Made by a program: the position numbers and the translations under genes. From the NCBI GenBank assembly GCA_900618795.1, contig UYJD01000017.1, positions 436,314-500,313 on the forward strand: 64,000 nt of DNA, written 5' to 3'. Positions 34,723-53,706 of this stretch are shown here, in pieces; position 1 is the stretch's first letter; the number at the start of each line of letters is the position of its first letter. Below the pieces are notes generated by a model. It searched no databases and was not told the origin of the DNA. It was given only the letters and a program-made list of their open reading frames with translations. The DNA comes from Cyanodermella asteris. Its lineage: Eukaryota > Ascomycota > Lecanoromycetes > Ostropales > Stictidaceae.

Positions 34723-35914
34723 CTACTTGTGAACCTGGTCCAACTTGAACAACTTGACCGCGTTGTCACGACCAATTTTCGCGTATGACTCCGCCTCGAG
34801 CTTGCCCTCGAGCCCATCGTACCACGTACAAGCATCGTGAAAGTTCTCAAATGGGTAGTCAATGCAAAACATGATTCGGTCGGCGCCAATCTCCTCGAGA
34901 GACAGCTTCAGCGCTGTCGTCGAAAAGTGCCCGCTGGTGGTTATCCAGATATTGGTGGCGAAGTATTCGTATATCGTCTTCTTGCACGTCGCCGACAGGC
35001 CCAGTGGCTTCTTGATGTCTTCGAACTAGCCGGGAATGTCAGCTACAGATCAAATCGCGTTGACGAAAGAATCTTACCCAGTGGTTGATCCGCCACAGAT
35101 CAAACGGAAGGTGCTCTCCCATGTGGCCGATGACAATCTTGAGCTTGGGGTGTCGGTCAAAAACCCCGTTCGTTACCATTCCGAGAACGTGCAACGACAC
35201 GCCCTGCGCGAAACTGAGAGGTGGCCCAACGAGCCATTTACGATCTGCCCATAGCTTCTGCTGAATGCCGCCGGTCGGACTTGCCAGGTGCTGTTAGCGA
35301 TACGTCCAATGCTTATTTTGAGTGCAATTTCGGCTGCACTCACTTTCTGGGGTGAAGGTAGAATGGAACATCGAGTTCCGTGACCGTCTGCCAAAACACA
35401 TCCCACTTTTCCGAGTCGTAGAAAATCATGTCGTCGCCATCGGATCCGGCCCGCTGTGTGTCATTCACGAGAGCGCCCTTGAAGCCCAGCTCCGTAATGC
35501 ATCGTCTCAGCTCGGCTGCCGCCTCCTGCGGGTCATGCATCGATAGCGTGCTACAGAATCAAGTCAGCGCTCCACCCCGTGGCCTGCCAGAAAACTCGGT
35601 GGAAATACTCACGCCAATGCGCCGAGTCTACTCTCGTGCCCCTTGATCGCTCCTGCAATGTAGTCATTCACCTCGACCGCCAGCGCCTGAGCTTCCTTTG
35701 GGTCCCAGATGTCTTGTGTCCCCGGCGCGGTGTATGAGAGCATCGTGTATCCGACACCGTATTCGTCCATGTACCTGATCCTCTGGTCGACCACATCGTT
35801 GATCTCGCGGACATGCTTGTCAGTGTCAATTGCAAAAAGTCCAGCCCACCATTTCTGTGTCGCAGCGAGTCGGGGTAGGGCAAAAGCCTCTTCAAAGGCG
35901 ATCTTGCCTTGCAT
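34723..35914 (-). CDS. 2,3-Dihydroxybenzoate-decarboxylase-type amidohydrolase
   Basis: Minus-strand exons are 35914-35613, 35550-35344, 35279-35078 and 35025-34723 and join to 337 residues, the family length. The start [16 protein letters not shown] keeps the E-x-A metal-site variant known in Aspergillus 2,3-dihydroxybenzoate decarboxylase. [13 protein letters not shown] supplies the metal His, [17 protein letters not shown] the next conserved His-Glu-His block, and [13 protein letters not shown] the metal Asp. Such enzymes release CO2 from 2,3-dihydroxybenzoate (to catechol) or gamma-resorcylate (to resorcinol), without cofactor other than a divalent metal. This gene is the left end of the aromatic cluster. 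Earlier possible starts are not ATG. The exact substrate is inferred from the family. Confidence 0.9.
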
Positions 35915-36072
35915 TGTGATGGAGATGGATACAGACAAGTTCTTGAAAGGCTAGGGACGTGTAGTCAGACAATCACGGAAATGGGACATGCATAGCTAAT
36001 AGAAGTCCTGGAGGCTATGAGTATATGAACGTGCTTCAGCTTGGTGATTGTGCTGCACCAGCCCTGTGTCAC

Positions 36073-36212
36073 NNNNNNNNNNNNNNNNNNNNNNNNNNNN
36101 NNNNNNNNNNNNNNNNNNNNNNNNNNNNNNNNNNNNNNNNNNNNNNNNNNNNNNNNNNNNNNNNNNNNNNNNNNNNNNNNNNNNNNNNNNNNNNNNNNNN
36201 NNNNNNNNNNNN
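36073..36212. other. Assembly gap (140 N)
   Basis: A run of 140 N bases lies between the decarboxylase gene and the FAD monooxygenase gene. The true length and content are unknown. Confidence 0.99.
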
Positions 36213-51307: not shown

Positions 51308-51935
51308 GTCGAATGCTGTTGTGACGCTCGCAGACGCCAGAGAGAAAAAATCTTGTATATTTCTTGAGTTACCAGCTGCAGCGAGTCTGAACTTGTCGAT
51401 CTTATTTGCCTTACACAACAATGAGCTCAGAAGCTTCAGATGCCGGGCCGATCAACTGGGCACGTTCCGAGATCATGTTTGAAGCGGACCCTTGATTATC
51501 GTGTGCACACGCTGCCGTTGCGCCCGTGAGAGACTAGAGCGATGCCTCACAATGCAGGGAGCATGCATCGCAATCTCGCATAGTAGTGCCTGGAATAGTC
51601 GCGTCAGGCGCACTCTAATCATCATCTGGCAGAGCTTGCGACTGCCTCCGCGAGGTCGAGCCGGATGATTTGATGATGCTTAGTAACGCAGCAAAGCAGC
51701 CGGTCCATATCCGACGTCGAGGCGCTCCACATCCGACGTCGAGGCGCTCCACATCCGAACTCGGGGTGGATGCATACCATGTAGCTTTCGAAGCTTCTGC
51801 AGAATGCAATGACTTCTTACGGTGACATTCCTGGTCATGTCGCAGGATCTCGCCTTTTCTTCATTCCAAAATTGTTCTCTTTTGTGATCGATTGTTCAGG
51901 GCTACTGCCACACTTCATTGTAGATATTAGCAAGG
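51308..51935. promoter_or_regulatory. Bidirectional promoter region, alpha/beta hydrolase / CoA-transferase
   Basis: This 628-bp region lies between head-to-head genes. It contains the tandem repeat described separately, with CCGAACTCGG (CCG-N4-CGG) at 51755-51764. Confidence 0.6.
51709..51764. repeat. 22-bp tandem repeat, two full copies plus a partial third, in a divergent promoter
   Basis: Copies are 51709-51730 and 51731-51752, identical in sequence (ATCCGACGTCGAGG and then CGCTCCAC). The third begins ATCCGAACTCGG. Each full copy has the 8-bp palindrome CGACGTCG; the partial copy changes this to CCG-N4-CGG. Placement about 170-230 bp before the CoA-transferase ATG and about 400-460 bp before the hydrolase ATG suits a regulator-binding array. 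Confidence 0.85.
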
Positions 51936-53706
51936 ATGTCTTACTCCACCTCAGCGGAAGCAGAGTCGCTGCTTGATCTTCTCTTATCCATCGTTGAGCT
52001 TCCACCAGAGGTTGCTAAGCTGAAAGATACCGTGCAATTTAGATCATCACGCCAGCTTCCATATTATCCCATCCCGTTCAAGGAGACAGAGCTCAGTGCC
52101 GCGCTCAAGGCGATCGAGGCATGCTTTGCCAGCGCACTGGCAGGTGGCCGGTCATCCATCGTCATTGATCTCGAAAAGACGACGGCGTTCCTCTGTCAGA
52201 CATATCTTTCTTCAATCGACGGCCACGGCAAGCTTGACCCGATCAGCAAAAGTTTGATTAAAAGTATGCTCACTGATTTGCTGAAAGTCGGTCTCTTGCT
52301 GACCAAGCAGATACGGATTTGCTGAAAGCACAATCCGATCCGTACCGCCGAATGCCCGCAAACCTTTACGAAACAAAGAGACAAAGCGAATACTACCATA
52401 TACACGGGTCGCTGGAGGCCTCGACTCAGCTCCGTATCATCGGCCTAGAGCCATTCCGCCCAGATTTGGAAACTCATGACGCTATCGTCGACTGCATCGA
52501 ATCCAAGGTTAAACAATTTACAGTCGAAGAGCTTGAGGACCTCACTCGAGAGCACCGACAAGCTGGCACGATTGCTTTCAAACATGAAGACTTTGTAAAG
52601 ACTCCGCATGTGAGTGGTCAGGTCATCATGGGGTATTTCAGGACTAATTCGATTGTCAGGGCCAAACCAACATCAATCGACCCCCATGGGAGGTGGAACA
52701 GTTCGAAAGCCAGACCAAGCCGGCACCTCTGAAAGGAGGCACGCGCATTCTCGAGGGCGTCAAGGTTTTGGAGCTTTGCCGAATCATTGCTGGACCCATT
52801 ATGGGTCGGATCCTGGCAGAGTATGGCGCCGATGTGCTCAAGATCACAAGCCCCAACCTAAGTGACGTGCCTTTCTTCCAGCTCGACTGCAACATGGGCA
52901 AGCATACGGCTGATCTCGATCTCAAGTCGCAACAAGGTCGAGCGACGTTTGAATCCTTGCTAGAAGAAGCAGATGTGATACTTGATGGCTATCGGCCTGG
53001 AGCTCTTGACAGGCTAGGATATGGAACCGAGCGTCTTAAAGCACTCGCTCTGAAGCGCGGAAAGGGCTATGTCTATGTCAACGAAAACTGTTTCGGTTAT
53101 CACGGAGAATGGGCGAATCGTTCCGGATGGCAGCAGATTGCCGACTGCGTAAGTCAATGTGCTAGGCCATAGTTTCGACTGAATGCTCATCCGTCACAGG
53201 TCACCGGCATAGCTTGGGAGCAGGGTCGATTCATGGGTCTCAACGAACCGGTCGTGCCACCGTTCCCAATATCAGACTACGGCACCGGTTGCATGGGTGC
53301 AATCGCAGCGCTGACTGGCTTGTATCACCGCGCCCATCAAGGTGGTTCTTGGCATGGCACGACGTCCCTGATGGCTTATGACCTCTTACTCTTCCGCGCA
53401 GGCAAATACACAGACGAAGTCCTACAACAACTCCGAGAGCAGGCCGGAGAGACGTTCCTCGCGCTTCAACACCACAATAGTGTCGATCAAATTTCAGGTA
53501 CGGCTCTACAAAGATTGCGCAGTCTGTTTCCGGATCTATTCGAAAGCGACGAGCTGCTGGAGACAAGATACTCGGATGCGTATTCTGCCGAGATCAAGAC
53601 AGTAAAGCCGGTCGCCGAGATCGAGGGCGTGGACAACACTTTTGAGCGTGCCAGCAGACCCAATGGATCTGATAAGCCAGCTTGGGACTTTTCCGACAGG
53701 AGCTAA
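51936..53706 (+). CDS. Family III CoA-transferase (CaiB/BaiF type)
   Basis: Exons 51936-52263, 52311-52609, 52660-53148 and 53200-53706 join to 540 residues. The N-terminal part (to about residue 215) is helical and variable. GGTRILEGVKVLELCRIIAG, then PIMGRILAEYGADVLKI, FFQLDCNMGKHTADLDLKSQ and ADVILDGYRPGALDRLGYG are the conserved CaiB-type core, with GIAWEQGRF and SDYGTGCMGAIAALTGLYHR in the last exon. Members move CoA between organic acids. In an aromatic pathway it could activate the acid substrate or a ring-cleavage product. It is the right end of the recognisable cluster. A run of NHxx-like C-terminal text suggests the protein is complete. Confidence 0.87.

Follow-up and report, generated by a model that had tools for sequence, protein, structure and literature searches.

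A candidate indole-degradation gene cluster of the catechol branch in the fungus Cyanodermella asteris

We analysed a stretch of 64,000 nucleotides from the ascomycete Cyanodermella asteris (assembly GCA_900618795.1, contig UYJD01000017.1, positions 436,314 to 500,313), hereafter called the window, in which ten adjacent genes, g1 to g10, occupy positions 34723-53706 (Table 1). We consider it very probable that this block is indeed a catabolic cluster belonging to the catechol branch, and we see about an even chance that its upstream part handles an indole-type compound. Taken as a whole, the block could well be a fungal indole-degradation cluster via anthranilate and catechol, a reading that we put just short of even. 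A tentative extension is that it may be a single-locus blueprint from indole or oxindole to ring cleavage of catechol, in which g4 would be the missing fungal indole oxygenase and an IifA-related ring opener would act next.

In the proposed route, the flavin-containing monooxygenase (FMO) g4 would oxygenate the indole or oxindole ring, the short-chain dehydrogenase (SDR) g5 would oxidise the product to 3-hydroxyindolin-2-one, and the IifA-related protein g3, composed of a dienelactone-hydrolase-like (DLH) and a SnoaL half, would cleave the latter to anthranilate in a cofactor-free manner. The flavin hydroxylase g2 may convert anthranilate to 2,3-dihydroxybenzoate, from which the decarboxylase g1 is predicted to form catechol and the intradiol dioxygenase g7, in turn, cis,cis-muconate; these last two steps have the support of sequence comparison. 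Muconate would be lactonised by enzymes encoded elsewhere, the hydrolase g9 would open 3-oxoadipate enol-lactone, and g10 may load CoA onto a dicarboxylate such as 3-oxoadipate. The Zn2Cys6 protein g6 would bind CGG-N-CCG sites in the shared promoters. An earlier note on this DNA had proposed one aromatic route comprising decarboxylation (g1), flavin-dependent hydroxylation (g2), intradiol cleavage (g7) and an enol-lactonase-like step (g9), which we retain. Its suggestion of an unusual substrate also stands, as the compound is probably not plain salicylate and the "extra" genes fit an indole route.

Biochemical work of 1990 on Aspergillus niger reportedly traced indole breakdown via anthranilate, 2,3-dihydroxybenzoate and catechol. 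Plants, bacteria and fungi signal to one another with indole, oxindole and auxin-like compounds, so the block would also offer markers of this capacity in fungal genomes. The kind of route is known from fungal biochemistry; among the papers listed in searches for indole genes, judged by title and opening part of the abstract, we found neither a description of its opening genes in a fungus nor a paper on a fungal indole oxygenase gene, and an attempted measurement of indole oxygenase in A. niger failed (PMC6221969). The block would supply three candidate genes for the opening of the fungal route and one for the anthranilate hydroxylase. If the proposal is true, fungi and bacteria share the ring-opening chemistry of SDR and SnoaL proteins and differ in the first oxygenase and in the anthranilate steps, g4 belonging to a different family from the group E oxygenase of bacteria.

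The catechol branch

The best PDB match of g1 is 6m53, a 2,3-dihydroxybenzoate decarboxylase, which aligns over the whole length with 608 bits (E 5.7e-182) and is identical at 255 of 336 aligned positions (76%); 236 of 334 positions are identical in 7wkm, and gamma-resorcylate decarboxylases reach 254-260 bits only. Among the solved enzymes of PF04909, g1 is closest to the characterised 2,3-dihydroxybenzoate decarboxylases, and judged by its sequence it is such an enzyme, with catechol as the predicted product.

The five best PDB matches of the dioxygenase g7 comprise PnpC, three enzymes named as hydroxyquinol-type dioxygenases and one carrying a family name only, a ranking that alone would have steered g7 to hydroxyquinol. 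Residues Y170, Y204, H228 and H230, which we take to be the iron ligands (Tyr, Tyr, His, His), are invariant with PnpC and 8r2x. For relatives of g7, a three-row alignment was scanned against a collection of 84,980 genomes, and the best 80 loci of at least 595 stretches (at least 521 relatives) were used. Next to these bacterial genes we found CatB in 18 of the 80 loci, a maleylacetate-reductase-type gene in 33 and neither in 29. Both labels were first given by eye and checked later with Pfam and NCBIfam. At the loci L018 and L001, CatB scores above the cut-off of the muconate cycloisomerase model, and L001, a member of the CatB-linked branch, also carries genes for a muconolactone isomerase, an HpaB-type hydroxylase and a flavin reductase. 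The linked reductase is an iron-containing alcohol dehydrogenase by Pfam, its name having no confirming NCBIfam model; we presume that it is maleylacetate reductase.

A tree of 72 rows placed bacterial sequences beside g7, including ten CatA rows (one of them, L106, under the family cut-off), ten unlabelled rows, with the remaining unlabelled loci set aside, and 7 of 19 CatB-linked rows, after removal of 12 Bradyrhizobium near-copies. In this tree, g7 falls within the CatB-linked branch (Bradyrhizobium, Celeribacter, Pannonibacter) with a support of 100/97, which stays at 99/95.7 after eight more long-branch rows are dropped; neither tree groups g7 with the enzymes linked to the maleylacetate-reductase-type gene. 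Because g7 groups with muconate-cycloisomerase-linked and not with reductase-linked enzymes, catechol is its likely substrate and a better reading than hydroxyquinol, in agreement with g1, whose predicted product is catechol. What we claim for g7 is probable activity on catechol, and membership of CatA is not claimed. After these linkage-labelled trees we dropped the hydroxyquinol reading that the PDB ranking had prompted, and with it the hydroxyquinol that the earlier note had considered for ring cleavage.

Several features of g7 tell against catechol. It sits on a long branch (1.27), apart from the ten-row clade of canonical CatA, and it stays under all NCBIfam cut-offs for catechol and chlorocatechol dioxygenases, with 146-163 bits against 359-404 (TIGR02439, 154 bits, cut-off 392; TIGR02438, 146 and 404.4; TIGR02465, 163 and 359.25). 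A comparison of residue signatures was mixed, g7 sharing some columns with each group; this result was set aside, the CatB-linked set being mostly of one genus. An approximately unbiased (AU) test that rejected g7 held together with the HQ and GRA rows was not used, as it also forced those rows from their unlabelled kin.

The same loci bear on a gamma-resorcylate route, in which g1 would give resorcinol, g2 hydroxyquinol and g7 maleylacetate. Besides the three hydroxyquinol-type names in the PDB ranking, it can draw on the g1-like decarboxylase present in 8 of the best 80 g7-type loci, six of which also have a g2-like hydroxylase, and on Scedosporium, where a CoA-transferase gene follows those for hydroxyquinol dioxygenase and maleylacetate reductase (PMC8283699). 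We nevertheless regard this route as very improbable, given that g7 sits in the muconate-cycloisomerase-linked branch, apart from the loci with g1-like decarboxylases, that g1 scores far higher with 2,3-dihydroxybenzoate than with gamma-resorcylate decarboxylases, and that maleylacetate reductase is not among the ten proteins. The earlier note had seen neither this reductase nor a transporter in the block, and Pfam likewise finds neither among the ten proteins; with g7 read as catechol-cleaving, the reductase is not expected. The closest transporter gene that we identified, at 16632-18654, encodes a sugar transporter.

Two sets of bacterial loci deserve mention in their own right. Six loci of Bradyrhizobium (L020, L021, L023, L029, L044 and L058) combine a g1-like decarboxylase, a single-component g2-like hydroxylase and a g7-like dioxygenase; four of the six have a maleylacetate-reductase-type match, and they represent a parallel resorcylate-type cluster. 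At L018 and L027, from two alphaproteobacterial genera, the CatB-linked dioxygenase adjoins a LysR-type regulator, an alpha/beta hydrolase and a small unassigned gene of 148-203 aa, neighbours that were read mostly by eye, with the alpha/beta hydrolase of L027 assigned by Pfam.

In the PDB, g2 comes nearest to 8x38, which is a decarboxylative vanillate 1-hydroxylase, and to 8gsm, which bears the name 4-hydroxybenzoate decarboxylase; the scores of chains named salicylate hydroxylase are lower. Its best NCBIfam model is 3-hydroxybenzoate 6-monooxygenase (181 bits, far under the cut-off), and the model salicylate_mono for salicylate 1-monooxygenase reaches 127 bits, its cut-off being 446. We propose that g2 is an anthranilate (or salicylate) hydroxylase giving 2,3-dihydroxybenzoate. 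Tryptophan is degraded through anthranilate, 2,3-dihydroxybenzoate and catechol in A. niger and Fusarium graminearum (PMC7842363).

Were salicylate the substrate of g2, the block would be a salicylate/2,3-dihydroxybenzoate cluster of known type, continuing with g1 and g7, and g3, g4, g5 and g8 would be accessory genes for another peripheral substrate. Both g1 and g7 fit fully, shyA, dhbA and crcA of A. niger are strongly upregulated by salicylic acid (PMC12388069), and a four-gene salicylate-induced cluster of A. nidulans contains a putative salicylate 1-monooxygenase and a dhbD-related amidohydrolase (PMC7842363). The fungal salicylate route (A. niger ShyA, DhbA and CrcA; A. nidulans AN2114-AN2118) has the hydroxylase, decarboxylase and catechol dioxygenase in common with our block, whereas the block adds genes for an FMO, an SDR, a DLH-SnoaL protein, a SnoaL protein and a CoA-transferase. 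Such a cluster leaves the contiguous trio g3-g4-g5 and g8 unexplained and sits poorly with the higher scores of g2 against 8x38 and 8gsm and with its score far under the salicylate cut-off; we find it rather unlikely. Downstream in the catechol branch, g9 is probably a 3-oxoadipate enol-lactonase-like hydrolase, PcaD (TIGR02427) being its best NCBIfam model with 101 bits, under the cut-off of 255.85.

The relation of g3, g4 and g5 to bacterial indole clusters

IifA converts 3-hydroxyindolin-2-one to anthranilate. Together with IifB, it takes oxidised indole to anthranilate (PMC6221969). The protein is described as a putative cofactor-independent oxygenase of two domains, of which the C-terminal one has a SnoaL fold; such a fold is also found in IacI of auxin catabolism (PMC7225977). 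Given these roles, indole catabolism can be expected to involve an SDR and SnoaL-fold proteins, which would leave the part of the oxygenase to g4.

Sequence comparison makes g3 a homologue of the IifA/DhoA-type protein that bacterial indole clusters encode. Homologues were found in 2 of 19 bacterial genomes searched, one of them in Paraburkholderia at a distance of about 10 kb from catA. The DLH-SnoaL protein of this locus (L164, 20 kb around the homologue) matches g3 at 34% over 409 positions and at 53% over g3 residues 161-356. L164 holds an intradiol dioxygenase, a muconolactone isomerase, an MLE-family cycloisomerase, the alpha and beta subunits of a Rieske oxygenase with their reductase, a MetA-pathway porin (Phenol_MetA_deg) and, by eye, a flavin-reductase-like frame. 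It further holds a styrene-monooxygenase-type oxygenase (Smoa_sbd), an SDR, the DLH and SnoaL_2 homologue and a regulator of the AraC type. This gene content matches the organisation of the WHOP/iif indole clusters, which comprise ipoA, ipoB, the porin gene ipoC, the SDR gene dhoB, dhoA for the cofactor-independent oxygenase, the AraC-type whpR, antABC and catBCA (PMC12538310). Our block resembles the bacterial iif/ind (WHOP-like) cluster in having an SDR beside a DLH-SnoaL protein, anthranilate as the proposed product and a catechol branch downstream. It differs in its FMO, the bacterial oxygenase being of the styrene-monooxygenase type (group E), and in the flavin hydroxylase and decarboxylase proposed here, in place of the Rieske dioxygenase of the bacterial cluster.

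In g3 itself, the SnoaL half reaches 27.6 bits with Pfam (cut-off 27). The DLH half has no DLH match in Pfam even at E 10, and the GFCLGG nucleophile motif of the bacterial homologue is absent by eye. We also considered g3 as an IifA orthologue, for which its placement failed in a tree of 34 rows (with L172 and L193 counted as "other"); what the comparison supports is homology. The bacterial family of genome G003 has g3 homologues in 29 of 100 genomes (E 0.001), and outside that family g3 relatives are rare when the threshold is E 1e-20, with 3 of 296 genomes in the phylum of G013 and 17 of 398 in that of G015.

The FMO g4, which matches the Lys/Orn monooxygenase model of Pfam, is our candidate indole/oxindole oxygenase; iif genes were sought near its bacterial homologues (L212-L215) and not found. 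For g5 we propose an IifB-like dehydrogenase. Its likeness to the SDR of L164 (31%) is at the family level only and not diagnostic. The small protein g8 matches SnoaL_2 at E 0.0014, below the cut-off, and has no match in the PDB or in 10 bacterial genomes.

Among the bacterial loci, L219, L222 and L233 have a DLH-SnoaL protein, an IifB-like SDR and a Rieske oxygenase and no styrene-monooxygenase-type match, possibly marking routes for other indole derivatives. In L227, a frame of 192 aa near position 8224 encodes a SnoaL protein (60% to g3 over 212-357), and a CoA-transferase III match (32%, 69 bits) lies 4 kb from it, near 12371.

Fungal clusters and the shared promoter site

In F. verticillioides, 2-oxindole induces three clusters, FVEG_06533-06536, 08763-08774 and 13976-13979 (PMC10512309). 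One consists of genes for an amidohydrolase, a SnoaL protein, an NAD(P)-binding protein and a transcription factor; the second, which also has an FAD oxidoreductase, closes with a contiguous run for a transcription factor, an alpha-beta hydrolase, a CAIB/BAIF protein and a catechol dioxygenase (FVEG_08771-08774); the third contains an L-lysine 6-monooxygenase, a carboxymethylenebutenolidase and an SDR (PMC10512309). By annotation only, the three clusters correspond in protein families to g1/g8/g5/g6, g6/g9/g10/g7 and g4/g3/g5, respectively, located at three separate loci there and in one block here. Such annotations do not support the earlier view that an FMO, SnoaL proteins and a family III CoA-transferase are foreign to fungal clusters of this kind. 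As for FVEG_13977 under 2-oxindole, Table 2 of the source disagrees with its text and Table 6 (PMC10512309).

A further rival reading is a cluster for benzoxazolinone-type lactams (2-aminophenol class) whose gene content would relate it to the Fusarium FDB clusters. FDB1 and FDB2 share with the block a salicylate-hydroxylase-type gene, a DLH and a Zn2Cys6 protein, and FDB2 pairs its salicylate hydroxylase with a family III CoA-transferase; moreover, the monooxygenase/DLH/SDR trio of F. verticillioides answers 2-benzoxazolinone (BOA) and chlorzoxazone besides 2-oxindole (PMC10512309). We consider this reading improbable. The metallo-beta-lactamase, amidase and N-acyltransferase named for BOA breakdown (PMC4726666) are not among the ten proteins by Pfam, the BOA route as given in the accessible passages does not include 2,3-dihydroxybenzoate, no ring-cleaving dioxygenase appears in the accessible parts of the FDB tables, and the catechol-dioxygenase/CAIB-BAIF run is listed under 2-oxindole and not among the BOA clusters (PMC10512309). 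The SAH and CCH classes of fungal degradative clusters, for which hybrids with several core genes are reported, likewise have salicylate-hydroxylase-type and catechol-dioxygenase core genes, whereas the present combination is not seen in the accessible passages (PMC10735191). Of these core genes, g7 here carries catechol dioxygenase domains, and g2 stays under the salicylate 1-monooxygenase cut-off.

The promoters of the block share a site. Of 1,664 gapped trinucleotide dyads, CGG-N1-CCG came first when block promoters were set against 23 kb of intergenic control DNA, with 6 sites in five of the six block promoters against 0.91 expected (1 of 2,000 Markov shuffles as high). It is also first among the 48 CGG dyads, where 0 of 400 shuffles were as high; the motif was chosen post hoc, and correction for 48 tests leads to about 0.02. 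The excess is local because the count over the whole window, 15, is at chance level. Three divergent promoters have the site nearer to one start codon (137-171 bp) than to the other (472-501 bp). The earlier statement that the cluster has its own regulator is supported by the Zn2Cys6 gene g6 and this common site. Chance adjacency of unrelated genes appears scarcely credible to us in view of the common site, of the fit of most of the ten genes to aromatic catabolism or its control, and of the co-induction of the same families, by annotation, in F. verticillioides (PMC10512309).

The indole reading has to be weighed against a number of observations that do not favour it. Its substrates are all predicted from sequence. 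The top-scoring models of g2 are not anthranilate enzymes, and none of the best 60 of its 64 PDB matches is named anthranilate hydroxylase. In its tree, g3 lies outside both the iif-linked and the other bacterial clade on a very long branch of 4.32, and only a minority of g3 homologues are accompanied by both IifB and IifC, in 8 of 31 narrow loci and in 6 of 20 wide ones (17 kb or to the contig end). Three of the other wide loci combine an IifB-like SDR and a Rieske oxygenase, and 11 have neither; six of the 20 (L227-L232) come from matches covering the SnoaL half alone. Because of the placement of g3 and this minority of linked loci, the indole link is a lean and not proof. Pfam finds no Smoa_sbd (styrene/indole-monooxygenase) domain in g4, nor in g2, and g5 is a generic SDR. 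The compounds BOA and chlorzoxazone, which the F. verticillioides trio also answers, are not indoles (PMC10512309), and its relation to g3-g5 is one of annotation only. Finally, the g7/g8 promoter has no CGG-N-CCG, and a muconate cycloisomerase, a muconolactone isomerase and a transporter are not among the ten proteins.

Gene models, the CoA-transferase and neighbouring genes

Gene models were obtained with a codon-usage gene finder trained on the window and by manual splicing. All ten genes were recovered in the order claimed earlier, as complete reading frames giving full-length proteins after splicing, and the genes of the window with their short introns have a fungal character. Pfam agrees with the earlier family assignments for eight proteins, covers only the SnoaL half of g3 and supports g8 only below threshold. 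Two models were corrected. The gene g4 gains two further 5' exons (42879-42991 and 43044-43080), by which its span becomes 41200-43080, and g9 gains a third exon (50361-50484) encoding GIGHWHCIEAP with the presumed catalytic histidine.

Table 1. Genes and CGG-N-CCG sites of the block, with positions in the window
Feature	Positions	Strand	Size or location	Pfam
g1, amidohydrolase-type decarboxylase	34723-35914	-	337 aa, 4 exons	PF04909 Amidohydro_2, 112 bits
g2, single-component FAD monooxygenase	37201-38724	-	419 aa, 6 exons	PF01494 FAD_binding_3
g3, DLH-like + SnoaL two-domain protein	39396-40815	+	411 aa, 4 exons	SnoaL_2
g4, FMO	41200-43080	-	559 aa, 3 exons	PF13738, PF00743, PF13434
g5, SDR	43896-44821	-	272 aa, 3 exons	PF13561 adh_short_C2, 201 bits
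g6, Zn2Cys6 transcription factor	45435-47659	+	669 aa, 5 exons	PF00172 Zn_clus, PF04082 Fungal_trans
g7, intradiol dioxygenase	47949-49033	-	292 aa, 5 exons	PF04444 Dioxygenase_N, PF00775 Dioxygenase_C
g8, SnoaL/NTF2-like protein	49621-50137	+	139 aa, 3 exons	sub-threshold SnoaL_2
g9, alpha/beta hydrolase	50361-51307	-	281 aa, 3 exons	Abhydrolase_1
g10, family III CoA-transferase, swapped halves	51936-53706	+	540 aa, 4 exons	CoA_transf_3
CGG-N-CCG site	36385-36391		471 bp upstream of g1	
CGG-N-CCG site	36430-36436		516 bp upstream of g1	
CGG-N-CCG site	38895-38901		divergent g2/g3 promoter, 171 bp from g2, 501 bp from g3	
CGG-N-CCG site	43705-43711		625 bp upstream of g4	
CGG-N-CCG site	44963-44969		divergent g5/g6 promoter, 142 bp from g5, 472 bp from g6	
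CGG-N-CCG site	51444-51450		divergent g9/g10 promoter, 137 bp from g9, 492 bp from g10	

By its sequence, g10 is a family III CoA-transferase with its halves in a non-standard order. Pfam matches only residues 240-434, and these to the first 200 positions of the family, i.e., the N-terminal half. In a profile comparison, the N half of g10 aligned with positions 163-404 of a standard-enzyme template (C-terminal half; probability 98.0, E 1.1e-12) and the C half with positions 36-307 (N-terminal half; probability 100). The g10 profile was built jointly with five bacterial relatives (L141-L145), and the standard profile from 28 of 30 sequences after a length filter. The swap rests on this six-sequence profile, because the N half as a single sequence had no match (probability 0.2). 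Both halves overlap on template positions 163-307, a pattern as after a tandem fusion with both ends lost. Loss of the catalytic aspartate was ruled out by alignment to yfdW, in which the Asp of FPISDYGTG aligns with that of ALGDSNTG. We take this Asp to be the catalytic residue of family III CoA-transferases. On the same sequence evidence, the swapped-half subfamily occurs in bacteria (L141-L145 and L153) as well as in this fungus; the neighbours of the bacterial genes show no shared pathway, and the phrase "family III CoA-transferase" was not found among the papers listed in a literature search. At L153, the gene lies near those for a TRAP transporter (DctM) and an AMP-binding enzyme.

The spaces flanking the block and the gap between g1 and g2 were examined by gene prediction and by eye only. 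The g1-g2 gap contains 140 N at 36073-36212, where a small gene might hide. To the left of g1 lies a stop-broken remnant of a class III aminotransferase, ornithine-type by eye, at 34027-34305 (+) with further pieces to about 34658; one piece matches PF00202 (E 2.6e-14) and two others have no match. A myo-inositol oxygenase gene (PF05153, 383 bits) at 32448-33374 (+) adjoins the block, and a heme-thiolate peroxidase of family 2 (PF01328, 154 bits) is encoded at 28154-29520 (-), 5 kb to its left. The 2-oxindole cluster of F. verticillioides likewise has an aromatic peroxygenase gene, which is not induced there (PMC10512309).

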